64,000 nt of DNA from Nocardioides sp. Its GTDB lineage: Bacteria > Actinomycetota > Actinomycetes > Propionibacteriales > Nocardioidaceae. The stretch covers positions 1 to 64,000 of the forward strand of contig JAICHQ010000007.1 of assembly GCA_025924815.1 (NCBI GenBank). Reading direction: 5' to 3'. Both the position numbers and the translations under genes were made by a program. Under the pieces are notes generated by a model. That model was not told the DNA's origin. It saw nothing but the letters and a program-made list of their open reading frames with translations, and did not search any database. Of the stretch, positions 13,126 through 39,503 are shown piece by piece. The number at the start of each line of letters is the position of its first letter. The stretch's first letter is position 1.

Positions 13126-13220
13126 TCCGGGGTGCCCAGCCCGTGGGATCGGCGTACCAGATGCTGGGACGGCAGGCAGACTCGCTTGACGACGTCGGAC
13201 CCGGGCGGGACCGTGGGCCC

Positions 13221-13262
13221 ATGCGCACGACACTCTTTGTACGCACCCGACGCGCGGGTTGA
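13221..13262 (+). CDS. ilvB leader peptide [13 protein letters not shown]
   Basis: A 13-codon reading frame reads Leu-Phe-Val at codons 5-7 (ctc ttt gta; gta and ttt are rare in this GC-rich genome) and ends 22 nt before the attenuator stem. Short leaders of the type MRTxxLxVxxRRxG upstream of actinobacterial ilvB are known to mediate transcription attenuation. Slow translation at the BCAA codons would favour read-through into ilvBNC. The frame, location and following terminator support the role; only two BCAA codons are present, which is modest. Confidence 0.7.
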
Positions 13263-13284
13263 GCCCGACTCACCCCACGCGTCA

Positions 13285-13314
13285 CCCCTCGCCGTCTCGG
13301 CAGAGGGGTTTTTT
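13285..13314 (+). terminator. Transcription attenuator of ilvBNC
   Basis: CCCCTC-GCCG (13285-13294) pairs with CGGC-GAGGGG (13298-13301 and 13303-13308) around a TCT loop with one bulged A, followed directly by six T (13309-13314). It is a textbook intrinsic terminator between the leader peptide stop and the ilvB start. Confidence 0.88.
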
Positions 13315-13365: not shown

Positions 13366-15123
13366 GTGACGACAGGGCAGACAGGTACGTCCATGACGGG
13401 CGCGCAGAGCTTGATCAGCGCGCTGGAGGCGGCGGGGACCCGCCACATCTTCGGCATCCCGGGCGGCGCGATCCTTCCGGCGTACGACCCGCTGATGGAC
13501 TCCTCGATCCGGCACATCCTGGTCCGCCACGAGCAGGGCGCGGGCCATGCGGCCCAGGGGTACGCCGCGGCGACCGGCCGGGTCGGCGTCTGCATGGCCA
13601 CATCGGGGCCGGGTGCCACCAACCTGGTCACCCCGCTGGCCGACGCGCACATGGACTCGGTCCCGATGGTCGCCGTCACCGGCCAGGTCGGTGCCAGCTC
13701 GATCGGCACCGACGCCTTCCAGGAGGCCGACATCCGGGGCATCACGATGCCGGTCACCAAGCACAACTTCCTGGTCACCGACCCGGCCGAGATCGCGCGC
13801 ACGATCGCCGAGGCCTTCCACATCGCCTCGACCGGCCGCCCGGGTCCGGTCCTGGTCGACGTGGCGAAGTCGGCGCTGCAGGCCCAGACGACGTACGCCT
13901 GGCCGAGCGAGCTCCACCTGCCCGGGTACCGCCCGATCACCCGGCCGCACGCCAAGCAGATCAAGGAGGCCGTCCGGCTGATCCTCGACGCCAAGCGGCC
14001 GGTCCTCTACGTCGGCGGCGGCACGATCCGCGCGGGCGCCTCGCGCGAGCTGCTCGAGCTCGCCAACCTGACCGGGATCCCGGTGGTCACCACGCTGATG
14101 GCGCGCGGTGCCCTGCCCGACAGCCATCCGCAGCACCTCGGCATGCCCGGGATGCACGGCACGGTCGCGGCCGTCGCCGGCCTGCAGCGCAGCGACCTGA
14201 TCATCTGCCTGGGCGCCCGGTTCGACGACCGGGTCACCGGCAACCTCGACTCGTTCGCGCCCGGCGCCCGGGTGATCCACGCCGACATCGACCCTGCGGA
14301 GATCGGCAAGAACCGCACCACCGACGTCCCGATCGTGGGCGACTGCCGCGAGGTGATCACGGACCTGACCACGTTGCTGCGTACCGAGGCGGCCGCCGGT
14401 CGTACCGGGGACTACGAGCAGTGGGTCGACTACATCGTGGGGATCAAGCAGCGCTACCCGGTCGCCTACGACCAGCCGACCGACGGCAGTCTGGCGCCGC
14501 AGTACGTGCTCGAGCGGCTCAGCGATATCGCCGGCCCCGACACGATCTACTGCGCCGGAGTCGGGCAGCACCAGATGTGGGCCGCCCACTACATCGACTT
14601 CGAGAAGCCGCGCACCTGGATCAACTCCGGAGGGCTCGGCACCATGGGGTACGCCGTGCCGGCCGCGATGGGTGCGCAGGTCGGACGCCCGGAGGCCACC
14701 GTCTGGGCCGTCGACGGCGACGGCTGCTTCCAGATGACCAACCAGGAGCTGGCCACCTGCGCGATCAACGCCATCCCGATCAAGGTGGCGATCATCAACA
14801 ACGAGTCGCTCGGCATGGTCCGGCAGTGGCAGACGCTGTTCTACAACGAGCGCTACTCCAACACCGACCTCGACTCCAAGCGGATCCCCGACTTCGTCAA
14901 GCTGGCCGATGCCTACGGGTGCGAGGGCCTGGCCTGCGAGTCGCCCGACGACGTCGACGCCACGATCGAGAAGGCGATGGCGATCGACGACCGGCCGGTC
15001 GTGGTCGACTTCCGGGTGAATCGCGACGCCATGGTGTGGCCGATGGTCGCGGCCGGCACCAGCAACGACGACATCAAGTACGCGCGCGACCTCGCGCCCC
15101 GGTTCGAGGAGGACGAGGCCTGA
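13366..15123 (+). CDS. ilvB: Acetolactate synthase, large catalytic subunit
   Basis: IlvB condenses pyruvate with pyruvate or 2-ketobutyrate using thiamine diphosphate, the first common step to Val/Leu and Ile. At 585 residues it has [17 protein letters not shown], the catalytic glutamate in [17 protein letters not shown], the FAD region [12 protein letters not shown], and the ThDP/Mg motif VDGDGCFQM...NN. GTG 13366 is chosen because GGTGA lies 8 nt upstream; ATG 13393 is a shorter alternative that keeps the whole conserved domain. It is first in ilvBNC and is controlled by the upstream attenuator. Confidence 0.97.
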
Positions 15124-33238: not shown

Positions 33239-34576
33239 GTGTCATCGCTCTCGCGCCGCACGGTGCTGCAGACCCTGGGGGGTGCCGGCCTCACCGCCGC
33301 GGCGGGCGCAGCCACCTCGGGGCTGGTCCTCAGCCGGGGCGTGACGGCACAGGCCGCGAAGTCCCTCGACCCGGTCTTCACGTTCGTCTCCCTGCCCGAC
33401 TTCATGAACGGCGACGTCGCGGACCTGCAGGTCCTGCCCACCTGGGACGGCGGAGCCAACTCGGTCAACCAGTCGTGGGAGGGCGCCATGGAGCGCGCCC
33501 TCCTGGCCGTCGCCGACGTCCAGCCCGACGCGGTCTTCCTGGCCGGTGACATGGTGGAAGGGCGGTGGAACGTCGACACCGAGAACCGGCAGCTGTTCGG
33601 TCCGGTCAACCAGGGCATCGACCCGGAGAGCATCGCGATGTGCAAGTCGGCGATCACGTCGGCGGGAGGCGTCTACTACTCCTACCACGCGGATCTCTTC
33701 GCGAGCCACGACCTCCCGCTCTATCCCGCGGTCGGCGACCACGAGATCCTCGACGACCGGCCCGGGCCGCTGAACGACCGGTGGAACCCGTCCGGGGTCA
33801 CCCTCGGGCAGCCCGACAACCGCTACTACCTCGTCGACCACGCCAAGAGCGTGTGGGCCGACCACTTCACGCGGCCCGGGGGAGTGCCCCGCTTCACCCG
33901 ACGCCCGGTCGGCACGGCGGCGGAGTTCTCGGCGTACTCGGTCTCCTTCGCCGACGCGCTGACCCTGATCACCGTCGACACGTTCATGCGCACCGCGCAC
34001 GGCGTCCGGCTCGGCGTCTTCGACGCCCAGCTGCGGTGGCTGCAACGGGAGATCCGGCGGGCGAAGCGGCGCGGTCACGTGGTGGTGGTCCAGGGCCACA
34101 TCCCGGTGATGCATCCGACCCGCTGGTGGGCTTCGGGCCGCCTGCGCGTGCCCGAGGGTCGCCAGTCGGTGTTCTACCAGGTGCTCCGTCGCGAGGGCGT
34201 CGACGTGTACCTGTGCGGGGAGGTGCACGACTCGACGGTGATCCAGCACGGCCGCCGGGCGCCGGTACAGATCAGCCACGGCTGCATCTTCGAGTACGGC
34301 TTCAGCTATCTGGTCGGCCGGCTGTACCCCGACCGCCGGCTCGTGCTCGACCTCTACGAGATCCCGCTCGTCGGGGCGAGTCTCGAGCGTGAGCTCTGGT
34401 GCACCCAGGGCGGCAAGTCGCAGCGCACCTTCCTGGAGTACGGCGCGCCCGCCCACCGCGGGCGCCTCGTGCAGCAGGACCGGGAGGTGCTCCGGCGTAC
34501 CGCCAAGCTGGGCCGCTACGACCGAAACGACGACCCGTACGACCTGCGGCACCACTCGCAGACCCAGCCGATCTGA
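33239..34576 (+). CDS. Tat-exported metallophosphoesterase-like protein, copy 1
   Basis: The 445-residue protein begins with a twin-arginine signal (SRRTVLQTLGGAGLT). Calcineurin-like phosphoesterase motifs follow: FLAGDMVEG (about 99), VGDHEILDD (about 165, GDHE in place of GNHE), VVQGHIPVM (about 285) and CGEVHDS (about 328). The usual N-terminal D-x-H appears as SLPDFMNGD, without the His. It is expected outside the cytoplasmic membrane; the substrate is unknown. It is followed by a close paralogue, indicating tandem duplication. Confidence 0.85.
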   Translation: MSSLSRRTVLQTLGGAGLTAAAGAATSGLVLSRGVTAQAAKSLDPVFTFVSLPDFMNGDVADLQVLPTWDGGANSVNQSWEGAMERALLAVADVQPDAVFLAGDMVEGRWNVDTENRQLFGPVNQGIDPESIAMCKSAITSAGGVYYSYHADLFASHDLPLYPAVGDHEILDDRPGPLNDRWNPSGVTLGQPDNRYYLVDHAKSVWADHFTRPGGVPRFTRRPVGTAAEFSAYSVSFADALTLITVDTFMRTAHGVRLGVFDAQLRWLQREIRRAKRRGHVVVVQGHIPVMHPTRWWASGRLRVPEGRQSVFYQVLRREGVDVYLCGEVHDSTVIQHGRRAPVQISHGCIFEYGFSYLVGRLYPDRRLVLDLYEIPLVGASLERELWCTQGGKSQRTFLEYGAPAHRGRLVQQDREVLRRTAKLGRYDRNDDPYDLRHHSQTQPI

Positions 34577-34744: not shown

Positions 34745-36073
34745 ATGTCACCGGTCACGCGACGCACTCTGCTGCAGTCGGTCACCGGTGCCGGCCTGAC
34801 CGTGGCCGGTGCGACGGAGACCCACCGCCTCGTCACGCAGCCGCGCGGCACGGGCGCAGCGGCCGACCCGGTGTTCACCTTCGCCTCGCTTCCCGACTTC
34901 TTCAACGGCGACGTCGGGGATCTGTCCGGACTGCCGACCTGGGATCTCGGCCTCAACTCGATCAACGACTCGTGGCGCGCCGCCATCGACCACTGCCTCG
35001 GAGCGATGTCGGCGCACCAGCCCGACGCCGTCTTCCTGGCCGGAGACATGGTCGAGGGCCACTGGAACATGGACGACGACGACCGCCGGATCTTCGGGCC
35101 GGTCAGCCGAGGCATCGACGCCGAGAGCATCGACATGTGCAACGCGGCCATCACGTCGGCGAGTGGCGTGTACTACCCCTTCCTGGCCGACCTGTTCTCC
35201 AGCCGCGGACTCGATCTCTACCCCGCGGTCGGCGACCACGAGATCCTCGACGACCGGAGCGGTCCGCTCAACGACCGCTGGAGCCCCTCGGGGTTCCACA
35301 AGGGCGAACCCGACAACCGCTACTACCTCGTGAAGCACTGCAAGGACGTCTGGTCGGACCACTTCACCCGGGTGGGCGGCGAGCCGCGCTTCTCACGCCG
35401 TCCCCGCGGCACGGCGTCCGAGTTCACGGCGTACGCCGTCTCGTTCGCGGACTCCCTCACCCTGATCAACGTCGACGTGTTCATGCATCACTCGCAGGGT
35501 GTCCGGCTCGGGGTCTTCCACGGCCAGCTGCGCTGGCTGCGTGACGAGATCCGACGTGCCAAGCGTCGCGGCCACACCGTCGTCGTCCAGGGGCACATTC
35601 CGGTCATGCGGCCCACGCGTTGGCTGGCCTCCGGCAAGCTGCACGTCCCGGAGGCCAGGGCCTCCGCGATGTACCACGTGCTCGACCGCGAGGGGGCCGA
35701 CGTCTACCTCTGCGGTGAGGTCCACGACAACACGGCCATCCAGCGCGACCGGCGCGCACCCGTGCAGATCAGCCACGGCTGCATCTTCCGGTACGGGTTC
35801 AGCTACCTCGTCGGTCGTCTCTACCCCGATCACCGCCTCGTGCTCGACCTCTACGAGATCCCCCTGGAGCGCGCGAGCCGCTCGACCGAGATCTGGTCGA
35901 CGGCCCGGGCCCGGCGGCAGCACACCGTGCTGGAGTTCGGCGACCCCGTCCACCGCGGACGGCTCGTGCAGCGCCACCGGGAGGTGCTCCGGCGTACGGT
36001 CAAGCTCGGCCGGTACGACGCCCGGCACGACCCCTACAGCAACCGCCTCCACAACACGACCGTCTACTTCTGA
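34745..36073 (+). CDS. Tat-exported metallophosphoesterase-like protein, copy 2
   Basis: This 442-residue paralogue of the upstream gene shares nearly every block: Tat signal TRRTLLQSVTGAGL, SLPDFFNGDVGDL, FLAGDMVEGHWN, YPAVGDHEILDD, VVQGHIPVMRPTRW, CGEVHDNTAI and SHGCIF. The two differ mostly in the signal and tail. ATG 34745 has AAGGGA 5 nt upstream. Retention of both copies with intact motifs argues for selection, perhaps for different substrates. A Ser/Thr kinase gene follows at 65 bp. Confidence 0.85.
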   Translation: MSPVTRRTLLQSVTGAGLTVAGATETHRLVTQPRGTGAAADPVFTFASLPDFFNGDVGDLSGLPTWDLGLNSINDSWRAAIDHCLGAMSAHQPDAVFLAGDMVEGHWNMDDDDRRIFGPVSRGIDAESIDMCNAAITSASGVYYPFLADLFSSRGLDLYPAVGDHEILDDRSGPLNDRWSPSGFHKGEPDNRYYLVKHCKDVWSDHFTRVGGEPRFSRRPRGTASEFTAYAVSFADSLTLINVDVFMHHSQGVRLGVFHGQLRWLRDEIRRAKRRGHTVVVQGHIPVMRPTRWLASGKLHVPEARASAMYHVLDREGADVYLCGEVHDNTAIQRDRRAPVQISHGCIFRYGFSYLVGRLYPDHRLVLDLYEIPLERASRSTEIWSTARARRQHTVLEFGDPVHRGRLVQRHREVLRRTVKLGRYDARHDPYSNRLHNTTVYF

Positions 36074-36137: not shown

Positions 36138-37670
36138 GTGTCCGTCCAGCCGTCCTCCGCACGCACGGTGGGCGACTACACGCTGCTCGCGCTCCTGGGT
36201 GAGGGCGGCATGGGCGTGGTCCATCTCGCGCGCAAGGCGGACGGCCCACGCGTCGCGCTGAAGGTGCTGCGCCCCCACATCGTCGGTGACGAGGAGGCGC
36301 GGCGCCGCCTGGCGCGTGAGGTGAGCTCGCTGGAGCGCATCCGGAGCCGTTGGATCGCCGAGATCGTCGACGCCGATCCCTGGGCCCCCACGCCGTACGT
36401 CGCCACCCGCTACGTCCCCGGCCTGAGCCTGCACGACCAGGTGCTGCGGGAGGGGCCGATCACCGGAGTCGACCTGCGATGGTTCGCCCGGTGCCTGGCC
36501 GAGGGGGTCGCCAGCGTCCATGCCGTCGGCGTGCTGCATCGCGACGTCAAGCCCTCGAACGTGCTCCTGGAGGGGCGCACCCCGATCCTGATCGACTTCG
36601 GCCTGGCGCGCGTGGCCGACGACCCCAAGCTCACCCACACCGGCTGGCTGCTCGGCACGCCGGGGTACCTCGCCCCCGAGATCCTGTACGGCGACGACGC
36701 GACCACCGCCTCCGACGTCCACTCCTGGGCCGCGACGGTTGCGTACGCCGGCACCGGTCACCCGCCGTTCGGTCGCGGCCCGTCGATGGCGATCATGGAC
36801 CGCGTACGTCGCGGCGAGCACGATCTGACCGGACTGCCGGCCGATCTGGGCTCGATCGTGGCGGCCGCGCTCGAGCCCGACCCGGCGCGCCGGCCGGGAC
36901 TGCGCGAGATCCTCGGCCGGCTGGGAGGCGACGCCCCGGCAGCTCCGGCACCCGTGGGGCCCGTCGCCGACGACCCGTTCACCCTGCCGCTGGCACTGGC
37001 CGCCCACGACGACTCGGTCGCGCCGACCCGGGCGTTCCCCGCATCGGGCCGCGACGTCGTCGACGACCCCGACGACTACCCCGTCGACCTGGCGCCGGTC
37101 CCCGAGCGGGCGAGCCCGGCGCTCGCGCCGCGACGCGGGCTCACCGTGCTCGCCGCCGGCCTGGTCGGCGGTGCCGCCGTCGCGGCGCGGCCCTACCTCA
37201 CCCTCGCCGTGCTGCTCGTCGGGTCGTGGTTGCTGCGCACGTGCACGGTCGTCGTCACCGCCCACGGAGACCGGCGCCGGCTTCGTGGCGCACGGTGGTA
37301 CGACGTGCTGGTGGCACCGCTGTCGGCGCCCTGGTACCTCGTGGCGGCCCTGCCCGGGGCGCTCCTGCTCGCCGCCTGGACGTTGGGCCTCGGTCTGGCG
37401 GGCGCGCTGGTGTCCTACGCGCTGGGGCTCTCGACGGCCACGTCGCTTTTCGTGACCGGTCTGTGCGTCACGGCCGGCGTGTGGGTGGGGCCGGGCGCGT
37501 CCCACGTGCGGTGGCCGGTGCGGGTGGTCGCCCACGCCGTCGCGCGCCGTACCGGACGCTGGGCGGTGATCACCGTCCTGCTGGTCGCTGCGGCAGGGTT
37601 CCTCGGCCACCAGGCCTCGCTGGGCGTCGCCTGGTCGCCGTTCGGCGAGCCGCACCTCCTGGGCCGCTGA
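36138..37670 (+). CDS. Transmembrane Ser/Thr protein kinase (PknB-type kinase domain)
   Basis: Residues about 12-270 form an Hanks-type kinase: GEGGMGVVHLA, K42 in VALKVL, HRDVKPSN with D136, DFG with D153, APE and a DVHSWAATVAYAGTGHPPF segment. A Pro/Ala/Asp-rich linker (about 275-335) precedes a C-terminal region with several hydrophobic spans (about 340-500), unlike the single span and PASTA repeats of PknB. The kinase is probably cytosolic with a polytopic sensor or anchor. The start is GTG 36138. It lies between the phosphoesterase pair and the cimA leader. Confidence 0.9.
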   Translation: MSVQPSSARTVGDYTLLALLGEGGMGVVHLARKADGPRVALKVLRPHIVGDEEARRRLAREVSSLERIRSRWIAEIVDADPWAPTPYVATRYVPGLSLHDQVLREGPITGVDLRWFARCLAEGVASVHAVGVLHRDVKPSNVLLEGRTPILIDFGLARVADDPKLTHTGWLLGTPGYLAPEILYGDDATTASDVHSWAATVAYAGTGHPPFGRGPSMAIMDRVRRGEHDLTGLPADLGSIVAAALEPDPARRPGLREILGRLGGDAPAAPAPVGPVADDPFTLPLALAAHDDSVAPTRAFPASGRDVVDDPDDYPVDLAPVPERASPALAPRRGLTVLAAGLVGGAAVAARPYLTLAVLLVGSWLLRTCTVVVTAHGDRRRLRGARWYDVLVAPLSAPWYLVAALPGALLLAAWTLGLGLAGALVSYALGLSTATSLFVTGLCVTAGVWVGPGASHVRWPVRVVAHAVARRTGRWAVITVLLVAAAGFLGHQASLGVAWSPFGEPHLLGR

Positions 37671-37759
37671 CGCCCGGTGCGTGCACGACCGGCCGCGATG
37701 CTCGGCCCGGCGGTCGGATCGTGAGATCCACCGGTCCTGTGCCGGGGCTTCGTGGCACC

Positions 37760-37795
37760 ATGGTGCGCGTGAGCACCACCATCATCATCACCTAG
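37760..37795 (+). CDS. cimA leader peptide MVRVSTTIIIT
   Basis: An 11-codon frame has three consecutive Ile codons (atc x3 at 37781-37789) plus two Val codons. It ends in TAG at 37793-37795, overlapping the 5' edge of a hairpin, and is followed by an intrinsic terminator. Such a leader would stall ribosomes when isoleucyl-tRNA is short, relieving termination before cimA, which makes an isoleucine precursor. The logic matches the end product of the gene. Confidence 0.85.
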   Translation: MVRVSTTIIIT

Positions 37796-37849
37796 CGCGT
37801 CGGCACTTCCCCGACGCGCAGACTCCTCGTCCCACGGGGGGTCTTTTTT
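37795..37849 (+). terminator. Isoleucine attenuator of cimA
   Basis: Two stems follow the leader codons. GCGCGTCGG (37795-37803) pairs perfectly with CCGACGCGC (37811-37819). GACTCCTCGT (37821-37830) pairs with ACGGGGGGTC (37834-37843) over 10 bp with two G-T wobbles, followed by six T (37844-37849). The second is a clear intrinsic terminator; the first is a likely pause or antiterminator partner. Confidence 0.88.
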
Positions 37850-37901
37850 GTTGGCCGCTCACGACCACGACCAGACCGACTCGAGCCCAGGACGGCACCG
37901 G

Positions 37902-39503
37902 ATGAGCACCCCCGCGGAGTTCCACGTCTACGACACCACGCTGCGCGACGGCGCGCAGCAGGAGGGGCTCAACCTCTCCGTCGCCGACAAGCTGACGATC
38001 GCCCGTCAGCTCGACGAGCTCGGCGTGGGGTTCATCGAGGGCGGGTGGCCCGGGGCCGGCCCCAAGGACACCGAGTTCTTCGCGCGCGCCCGCGAGGAGC
38101 TCGACCTGCGGCACGCCCGCCTGGCGGCGTTCGGCTCGACCCGTCGGGCCGGCGTACGCGCCGCCGACGACCCGCTGGTGGCAGCCCTGCGCGACAGTGG
38201 CGCATCGGTGGTGACCCTCGTCGCGAAGTCGCACTCGCGACACGTCGAGCTCGCGCTGCGCACCACGCCGGCGGAGAACCTCGAGATGGTCCGCGACACG
38301 GTCAGCCACCTGGTCGCCGAAGGACGACAGGTCTTCCTCGACGCCGAGCACTTCTTCGACGGGTTCCGGGCGGACCGCGCCTACGCGCTCGAGGTGCTGC
38401 GGACGGCGTACGACGCGGGGGCCGACGTGGTGGCGCTGTGCGACACCAACGGCGGCATGCTGCCGGACTGGGTCGGCGAGGTGGTCGCCGACGTGGTCGC
38501 GACGACCTCGGGCCGCGTCGGGATCCACTGCCACAACGACACCGGGTGCGCGGTGGCCAACACCCTGGCGGCGGTCGAGGCCGGCGCCACGCACGTGCAG
38601 GGCACGATCAACGGCTACGGCGAGCGCACCGGCAACGCCGACCTGGTCTCGGTGGTGGCCAACCTCGAGCTCAAGCTCGACCGGCCCGTGCTCCCCGACG
38701 GGCTCCTCGGCGAGGCCACGCGGATCGCGCACGCGGTCGCGGAGGTCACCAACGTGCCGCCGGCCTCGCGTCAGCCGTACGTCGGGGCCTCGGCGTTCGC
38801 GCACAAGGCGGGCCTCCACGCCAGCGCGATCAAGGTCGACCCGGACCTCTACCAGCACATGGACCCGGCGGGCGTCGGCAACGACATGCGGCTGCTGGTC
38901 AGCGACATGGCGGGCCGCGCCTCGATCGAGCTGAAGGGCCGCGAGCTCGGCTACGACCTCTCCGGCGACCGGGACCTCGTCGACCGGGTGACGGCCCGGG
39001 TCAAGGAGCAGGAGGCCCGCGGCTACACCTTCGAGGCGGCCGACGCTTCGTTCGAGCTCCTGCTGGCGGAGGAGGCCGACGGCCACCGCCCGACGTACCT
39101 CGCCGTCGAGTCGTGGCGGGTGATCACCGAGACCCTGACGCACGCGCGGCCGGGGGAGGAGGCGGTCTCGGAGGCGACCGTCAAGCTCGTCGCGGAGGGA
39201 GTGAGGTACGTCGAGACCGGCGAGGGGAACGGCCCCGTCAACGCCCTCGACCAGGCCTTGCGGCAGGCACTGGTGCAGGCCTACCCCGAGGTCGCGAAGT
39301 TCGAGCTGATCGACTACAAGGTGCGGATCCTCGACCAGGGTCACGGCACCGACGCGATCACGCGGGTGCTGATCGAGACCTCCGACGGCGAGGGCTCCTG
39401 GTGGACCGTCGGCGTCGGCGCCAACGTGATCGAGGCGTCGTGGGAGGCGCTCCTCGACGGGATCACCTTCGGCCTGCGCCGGCTCCGGAGGGCCACCGGC
39501 TAG
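37902..39503 (+). CDS. cimA: Citramalate synthase
   Basis: CimA condenses pyruvate and acetyl-CoA to (R)-citramalate, giving 2-ketobutyrate for isoleucine without threonine. The 533-residue protein has the HMGL-like/LeuA catalytic barrel: VYDTTLRDGAQQEGL, FIEGGWPGAGPKD, EHFFDGFRAD, LCDTNGG, GIHCHNDTGCAVANTL, NGYGERTGNADL, and a C-terminal LeuA-type allosteric domain (about 395-525). The FFDGFR and GWPG blocks fit citramalate synthase rather than LeuA. The isoleucine-codon leader upstream supports this role. Confidence 0.95.
   Translation: MSTPAEFHVYDTTLRDGAQQEGLNLSVADKLTIARQLDELGVGFIEGGWPGAGPKDTEFFARAREELDLRHARLAAFGSTRRAGVRAADDPLVAALRDSGASVVTLVAKSHSRHVELALRTTPAENLEMVRDTVSHLVAEGRQVFLDAEHFFDGFRADRAYALEVLRTAYDAGADVVALCDTNGGMLPDWVGEVVADVVATTSGRVGIHCHNDTGCAVANTLAAVEAGATHVQGTINGYGERTGNADLVSVVANLELKLDRPVLPDGLLGEATRIAHAVAEVTNVPPASRQPYVGASAFAHKAGLHASAIKVDPDLYQHMDPAGVGNDMRLLVSDMAGRASIELKGRELGYDLSGDRDLVDRVTARVKEQEARGYTFEAADASFELLLAEEADGHRPTYLAVESWRVITETLTHARPGEEAVSEATVKLVAEGVRYVETGEGNGPVNALDQALRQALVQAYPEVAKFELIDYKVRILDQGHGTDAITRVLIETSDGEGSWWTVGVGANVIEASWEALLDGITFGLRRLRRATG

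Follow-up and report, generated by a model that had tools for sequence, protein, structure and literature searches.

The window analysed here (a stretch of 64,000 nucleotides from Nocardioides sp., contig JAICHQ010000007.1, positions 1 to 64,000) raises the question of how cimA, the gene for citramalate synthase, is controlled: at 37756-37849 a short open reading frame (ORF) with isoleucine codons is followed by a perfect 9-bp hairpin (P1), then by an intrinsic terminator (T), and then by cimA. The initial annotation had described a leader MVRVSTTIIIT with three tandem Ile codons, a 9-bp hairpin overlapping its stop codon, a terminator with six T, and a citramalate synthase gene downstream. 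The corresponding features are as follows.

37753..37761 (+ strand): extended -10-like element TGG-CACCAT, hexamer CACCAT at 37756-37761 (from the sequence)
37769..37795 (+ strand): leader ORF, probably leaderless, GTG AGC ACC ACC ATC ATC ATC ACC TAG (MSTTIIIT, 8 codons; from the frame control in relatives)
37781..37789 (+ strand): three tandem Ile codons ATC ATC ATC, the proposed sensor (from the sequence and relatives)
37793-37795 (+ strand): leader stop codon TAG (from the sequence)
37795..37819 (+ strand): hairpin P1, arms GCGCGTCGG and CCGACGCGC, 9 bp, 7-nt loop (from the fold and covariation)
37820..37849 (+ strand): intrinsic terminator T, 11-pair stem with 3-nt loop at 37820-37844, six T at 37844-37849 (from the fold, a terminator scan and covariation)
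37902..39503 (+ strand): cimA, for citramalate synthase, the presumed target of the regulation (TIGR00977, 624.5 bits, cut-off 450)

The Ile codons, the hairpin, the terminator (which covaries in relatives) and the gene call stand as first described, the overlap of P1 with the leader amounting to one base, since the final base of the TAG also serves as the first G of P1. The proposed start at ATG 37760 is dropped: this ATG lies within the -10-like hexamer, and GTG 37769 is the likely start. P1 and T follow each other with zero spacer (37819 / 37820). Folding of 37769-37851 gives -35.9 kcal/mol (z = -5.24; 0 of 200 shuffles as good), and a terminator scan of 37600-38000 returns four overlapping versions of one site, compared with a mean of 0.1 in shuffled sequence. 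A sigma-70 promoter scan, which demands a near-consensus -35, finds nothing. The Rfam 15 covariance models, run over the window, return two tRNAs only and no riboswitch, T-box or known leader; among ten cimA loci (E<=5) the sole overlapping Rfam match is sub-threshold and at chance level (L004, 25.5 bits, cut-off 50).

Two observations concern the DNA further upstream. The word TGAGATC stands at 37722-37728, about 28 nt upstream of the -10 hexamer, and GAGATC- or GAGAC-like words recur upstream of the promoter in relatives (including L001, L004, L005, L010 and L099); perhaps a word of this type is an operator. The ORFs at 33239-34576 and 34745-36073 adjoin and encode clearly similar proteins, an apparent tandem duplication.

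Conservation, reading frame and geometry in relatives

Relatives of cimA were collected by protein search in titled contigs and whole genomes, and many have the same upstream arrangement. A covariance model was built from a MAFFT alignment of 35 elements, the window's among them. In this alignment 15 of the 22 pairs in the two hairpins show both-side changes (7 of 11 in P1 and 8 of 11 in T), a number that none of 500 shuffles reaches, and pairing is found in 90.9% of cells versus 36-55% for slid versions. When 100 of the 190 matches described below are aligned on the model, an alignment that for this reason leans towards the model, both-side changes occur at 17 of 22 pairs (again 7 of 11 in P1, and 10 of 11 in T; 0 of 500 shuffles). 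At E<=0.1 the model matches in 178 of the 196 genomes of the window's genus and in 209 of 296 genomes, representing 98 of 114 genera, of the class; these counts include weak matches, some of which may be something other than cimA elements. In all, 194 sources (100 listed places and 29 loci in the class, 34 titled-contig and 29 genus loci, the window's genome, and the window itself) yielded 190 matches, the sources that lack one being L032, L034, L036 and L100. In 183 of the 190, cimA lies at most 900 nt downstream; the cimA counts given here rest on these 183 elements, to the exclusion of seven matches that do not adjoin cimA. The 183 comprise 176 distinct sequences, and loci from different collections may be the same genomes. 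Energy calculations cover 181 of them, the P1 stem of the other two scoring less than 5 bp. The alignment upstream of cimA that the initial annotation had suggested thus finds the Ile codons, P1 and the terminator conserved in many relatives, as the 183 parsed elements attest.

In 181 of the 183 elements a hexamer of the form xAnnnT precedes the start codon of the Ile frame by 4-9 nt. It precedes the chosen leader start by 6-7 nt in 165 of the 183, and this start is ATG or GTG in 156 of the 165, the starts so spaced having been chosen within the Ile frame. An Ile-independent control takes any ATG or GTG up to 75 nt upstream of P1 that has TGn[TC]AnnnT 6-7 nt ahead: 128 elements possess one, and it falls in the Ile frame in 128 of 128, compared with a chance expectation of one third. 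Among the 148 elements outside the model the same control gives 99 of 99, and with the TG requirement lifted it gives 116 starts in the Ile frame and one out of it. The automatic choice of start is unreliable in the 15 leaders for which it returns CTG (two of them lacking a -10-like hexamer) and in the one for which it returns TTG. In the relative L028 the ATG matching 37760 is out of frame with the Ile codons and the GTG is in frame. A frame of His codons (CAC CAC CAT CAT CAT CAC) was dismissed as well: no ATG or GTG in that frame is seen nearby, and the conserved start motif belongs to the Ile frame. These comparisons suggest that the leader probably starts at GTG 37769, 7 nt downstream of the hexamer, and that the ORF is probably leaderless, in which case transcription would begin at or next to this GTG. 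In Streptomyces lividans, transcripts are described as having a TAnnnT -10 box that precedes the start by a mean of 6.3 nt (PMC8079986).

Ile accounts for two or more of the last five leader codons in 170 of the 183 cimA elements, and for a single one in the other 13; in model-found elements such counts lean upwards, because the reading frame is the one of three with the most Ile codons and the model itself holds Ile-codon columns. Among loci fetched by protein similarity the corresponding figure is 58 of 60, or 24 of 25 for those outside the model alignment. The last five codons contain 218 ATT, 210 ATC and no ATA, compared with 97 ATT, 1902 ATC and 14 ATA among the 2013 Ile codons in the cimA coding stretches of 181 of these loci; ATT, a codon generally avoided in these genes, is thus favoured in the leader.

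The spacing of the parts is likewise conserved. The last Ile codon is 5 nt from P1 in 145 of the 183 elements; the stop codon sits at the base of P1 or immediately ahead of it in 117 and inside its 5' arm or loop in 66, and 17 nt or more separate its end from the terminator in every one of the 183. In 178 elements P1 begins with the four pairs GCGC/GCGC; its loop ranges from 3 to 65 nt. P1 and T are 0-2 nt apart in 181 of the 183 elements and in 59 of the 60 protein-fetched loci, the search having covered spacers of -1 to 6 nt, a range that together with the model favours short ones. Elements with late stop codons have longer P1 loops (median 15 vs 10, Mann-Whitney p 4e-8, n = 66 vs 117), a relation that is suggestive at most, given the kinship among the sequences and a smallest distance of 6 nt from stop codon to 3' arm. 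In the terminator, bases 4-10 of the 5' arm stay near CCTCTCG and the 3' arm varies via G-U pairs, with U-G being the most frequent pairing at one of the positions (60 of 99 in the model-aligned set of further matches), as if the 5' arm were under some further constraint.

In the window's genus, a cimA match at E<=1e-100 is found in 179 of 196 genomes, of which 170 also show a model match at E<=1.5e-10, a comparison of presence per genome rather than of adjacency in each. The initial annotation had held that loss of the Ile codons or terminator in close relatives would speak against an attenuator; loss is met with in a minority, namely in 9 of the 179 cimA genomes. Eight of the nine are without a match and one (G146) has a leuS element only; relaxing the filters adds weak matches (E 0.002-0.07) in four of the eight, and the two of these that could be placed precede ilvB (L253, L257). 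In G144 absence means nothing, because the contig begins 62 nt before cimA. Six of the nine element-less upstream regions were examined. Four (L100, L327, L328, L329) have a -10-like hexamer 9-10 nt before the cimA start codon and nothing between, which indicates that the whole switch is gone and that the mRNA would be nearly without a 5' leader; L331 retains a short leader devoid of Ile codons, and L330 is not plainly of either kind. The 17 genomes of the genus that lack such a cimA have no model match better than 2.4e-10, and their seven matches consist of five leuS elements (2.4e-10 to 2.9e-6) and two chance-like hits (0.004 and 0.008).

The model was also used to search 77 titled-contig loci, taken from 80 by leaving aside L045, L051 and L052, which have a partial cimA and no upstream DNA. 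There are 31 strong matches before cimA (E<=1e-12) and nine weaker ones (E 6e-10 to 0.002). The weaker matches occur in 9 of 47 loci, and six bear titles of Acidimicrobiia families; no match was found in the other 38 of the 47, which include fresh-water actinobacterial, Coriobacteriia, Chloroflexi and Bacillota-like records. At L075 and L077 the weaker match stands directly before cimA. In six records, mostly Acidimicrobiia-like (L053, L057, L059, L064, L069, L078), the element precedes a leuB-like gene located 1.1-2.3 kb upstream of cimA, and its leader has either Ile codons or a mixture of Ile and Val codons; the match in L067 is at the same place as that in L069. It is plausible that in those records leuB and cimA form a unit under one such switch. 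The element is present, among other named records, in Nocardioides, Nonomuraea, Amycolatopsis, Pseudonocardia, Kutzneria, Lentzea, Cellulomonas and Pedococcus. The Streptomyces homologue of cimA we take to be SCO5529.

Sister elements upstream of ilvB and leuS

Five of the seven matches that do not adjoin cimA precede ilvB-like genes (L174, L215, L226, L231, L236), one precedes leuS (L243) and one another ORF (L209), the genes at these and other placed matches being assigned from the translated protein as read. The last case (L209 / L332, G368:C37) is a second Ile element, GTG ATC ATT ATG TAG, before an ORF of about 127 aa that is ACT-like by eye; the same genome has an element at cimA on another contig (L232).

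The upstream regions of ilvB and leuS in the genus, the genes having been identified by TIGR00118 and TIGR00396 respectively, were searched with a codon-blind parser for the same chassis, that is, a start codon behind a -10-like hexamer, then P1, with T following at 0-3 nt. The chassis was parsed in 27 of 29 ilvB loci and 23 of 30 leuS loci; a second ilvB copy in one genome (L296) lies outside this set. The spacer between P1 and T is 0-2 nt in all 27 ilvB and all 23 leuS elements, in a search range of 0 to 3 nt that favours short spacers. The ilvB leaders have an I/L-L-V triplet in 25 of 27 (18 ILV, 7 LLV) and the leuS leaders LLL in 21 of 23; among the 183 cimA leaders, 164 contain II and none contains ILV or LLL. 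The window itself contains an ilvB element:

13209-13314 (+ strand): ilvB sister element, whole (from the parser)
13221..13262 (+ strand): its leader, with Leu-Phe-Val codons (from the parser)
13249..13314 (+ strand): its P1, arms 13249-13254 and 13278-13283, abutting the terminator 13284-13314 (from the parser)
13393-15075: ilvB (from a profile match)

This element scores weakly against the cimA model (15 bits, E 0.79), and its leader is one of the two, among 27, without the I/L-L-V triplet. Elsewhere in the window's own genome, leuS (L243 / L316, contig C50) has the same chassis with MQHRTCTLLLRQPR.

The triplet thus appears to track the product of the gene that follows: Ile at cimA, all three branched-chain amino acids at ilvB and Leu at leuS. 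Of all the evidence, this match argues most strongly for the codons as the sensor, and the Ile specificity of the cimA switch is supported by the fact that the same chassis bears other branched-chain codons at ilvB and leuS; the initial annotation's pairing of sensing codons with the pathway product gains accordingly, ilvB and leuS having the chassis with branched-chain codons of their own. Whether the three represent one modular chassis retuned by its triplet (III or II at cimA, ILV at ilvB, LLL at leuS) and operating with no shared antiterminator/terminator pairing, such that the flush hairpin would block T and the terminating ribosome would remove the hairpin, is a question to which we incline somewhat towards a negative answer.

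Proposed mechanism and rival explanations

The cimA element is in all likelihood an Ile-responsive attenuator, and ribosome-mediated attenuation that ties cimA expression to charged tRNA-Ile is probably the best explanation for it; the chassis very probably raises each of cimA, ilvB and leuS when the respective amino acid runs short. The coding frame, the Ile codons, the hairpins, their geometry, the association with the gene, and the ilvB and leuS codons come from sequence comparison, and from these we infer the transcription start, the stalling, the direction of regulation and the blocking step. If transcription starts at or next to GTG 37769, a 70S ribosome would load on the 5' end and read the leader while RNA polymerase is still in the first ~80 nt. 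With plentiful Ile-tRNA the ribosome would arrive at the stop codon and there cover the 5' half of the P1 stem, leaving the terminator free to form. With Ile-tRNA in short supply the ribosome would halt on the Ile codons just before P1, P1 would form, and the intact, flush P1 would keep the terminator stem from closing inside the polymerase, so that cimA would be transcribed. Feedback in the expected direction demands that P1 oppose T, and the spacing of 0-2 nt leads to the proposal that P1 itself blocks T: the base of the closed terminator would sit at the upstream edge of the RNA-DNA hybrid, and a helix 0-2 nt away should not fit. That an intact P1 blocks the terminator in this way is in our judgement very nearly an even call. 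P1 and T coexist in the minimum-energy fold of 180 of 181 elements, which speaks against such a block in freely folding RNA, and exclusion must therefore come from the polymerase or from kinetics. An overlap of the ilvBNC kind was also sought, and P1 can be extended past its base (without bulges) by one pair in 16, by two pairs in 10 and by none in 157 of the 183 elements.

The general layout of leader ORF, two hairpins and U tract would equally suit a trp-type attenuator, in which P1 is a 1:2 pause hairpin and a stalled ribosome allows the 3' arm of P1 to pair with the 5' arm of T as a 2:3 antiterminator. When these arms (with the terminator loop) were folded together in 181 elements, no competing antiterminator was found: the 2:3 pairing averages -3.1 kcal/mol versus -16.6 for T and is stronger than T in none of the 181, even though it reaches -5 kcal/mol or lower in 27 (best -9.8). 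In 24 of 181, half or more of the 5' arm of T is already paired within the nascent RNA by the time its 3' arm is transcribed. The 3' arm of P1 and the 5' arm of T are moreover contiguous, with scant room for a loop. A ribosome with its A site on a codon covers about 12 nt downstream, and since P1 begins 5 nt past the end of the Ile run, one stalled on the first of these codons would be expected to leave P1 free, not to cover it. A trp-type switch is therefore unlikely here, although candidate attenuators with antiterminator hairpins have been put forward at Streptomyces leuS (Seliverstov et al., PMC1262725). Much the same probability attaches to the view that P1 is a pause or factor-docking hairpin (for NusA, for example) that merely times RNA polymerase, while the ribosome modulates termination via coupling: in its favour stands the stable, conserved hairpin directly upstream of T, and to judge by the title of the report concerned, the Escherichia coli S10 leader requires a hairpin upstream of its terminator, yet a pause hairpin alone leaves unexplained both the fixed 5-nt distance from Ile codon to P1 (145 of 183) and the position of the stop codon at the base of P1 (117) or inside it (66).

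Against the Ile attenuator stand the leaders with just one Ile among the last five codons (13 of 183) and the results cited for Streptomyces coelicolor, in which changes to candidate ilvB leader codons had no effect and changes at leuA did not fit classical attenuation (cited in PMC1262725); the latter are a real caution for the whole class. The ilvB result would also suit a leader that acts after or beside intrinsic termination, through Rho-dependent termination or mRNA decay, with the terminator as a constitutive partial stop; the terminator stem covaries, however, and T belongs to the model and hence is present in the matched elements, and we regard this explanation as distinctly improbable. 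That the terminator simply serves the upstream gene, whose ORF ends at 37670 and which might unsurprisingly have one there, and that the short ORF arose by chance, is scarcely credible: the in-frame start, the Ile codons and the geometry are kept across many genera, together with the association with cimA.

If Ile-responsive attenuation is correct, cimA, which opens the pyruvate route to isoleucine, would be controlled by isoleucyl-tRNA in a large share of the actinobacteria. A single genus with three sister elements (III, ILV and LLL) offers a natural experiment on attenuator specificity, and the abutting hairpins without a shared arm provide a testable case of a stalled ribosome preventing termination in GC-rich bacteria, in which the earlier codon mutations at ilvB and leuA gave ambiguous results. 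An annotation rule also suggests itself: a leader with tandem Ile codons ahead of a citramalate synthase.

Comparison with known attenuators

The element is well supported by comparison as a widely conserved, apparently unreported relative of ribosome-mediated attenuators, with a probably leaderless leader and abutting hairpins. In enterobacterial trp-type attenuators, the position of the ribosome on the sensing codons decides between alternative hairpins; the cimA element resembles these in the logic of its layout and differs in that no 2:3 antiterminator shares a terminator arm and in its probably leaderless start. Actinobacterial leader peptides at ilvB, leuS, leuA and trp have already been published (PMC1262725, PMC8079986, PMC10272879). 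For cimA, searches of an open-access library yield no description of an attenuator; most subscription journals fall outside this coverage, and the review of Lopatovskaya et al. 2010 or the supplementary list of 150 premature transcription units from the Streptomyces clavuligerus term-seq study (PMC8269248) may hold one. PMC13158618 concerns an archaeon and mentions cimA only as a deletion.

The leaderless leader peptides of S. lividans TK24 (leuL2 at leuS, ilvL at ilvBHC, trpL1 at trpE; PMC8079986) are alike in having a short leaderless ORF with pathway codons, hairpins and a U-rich stretch, leuL2 being MRAVRLLLSEPR; eight attenuators are listed there, cimA is not among them, and 'cimA' and 'citramalate' are absent from the main text. 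The leuS and ilvB attenuators of Seliverstov et al. 2005 (PMC1262725) are likewise actinobacterial leader peptides with terminators, and the leuS and ilvB elements of the window's genus are presumably of the kind predicted there; the text of that paper contains neither 'cimA' nor 'citramalate', and its leuS cases have separate antiterminator hairpins. The Corynebacterium ilvBNC and ilvB-II elements (PMC11857589, PMC10272879) also have branched-chain codons in a short upstream ORF, but precede another gene and contain other codons; the ilvB-II motif comprises two hairpins, P1 and P2, of which P2 is the terminator, as in the cimA layout (PMC10272879). Mutational analysis of ilvBNC in C. glutamicum gave rise to a model of adjacent antiterminator and terminator hairpins that compete for the trinucleotide at their border (PMC11857589). 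The ilvBNC hairpins overlap at this trinucleotide, GCC, whereas P1 and T of cimA are 0-2 nt apart with little or no shared pairing; by analogy, the cimA switch would be the limit case of the ilvBNC model, with zero overlap.
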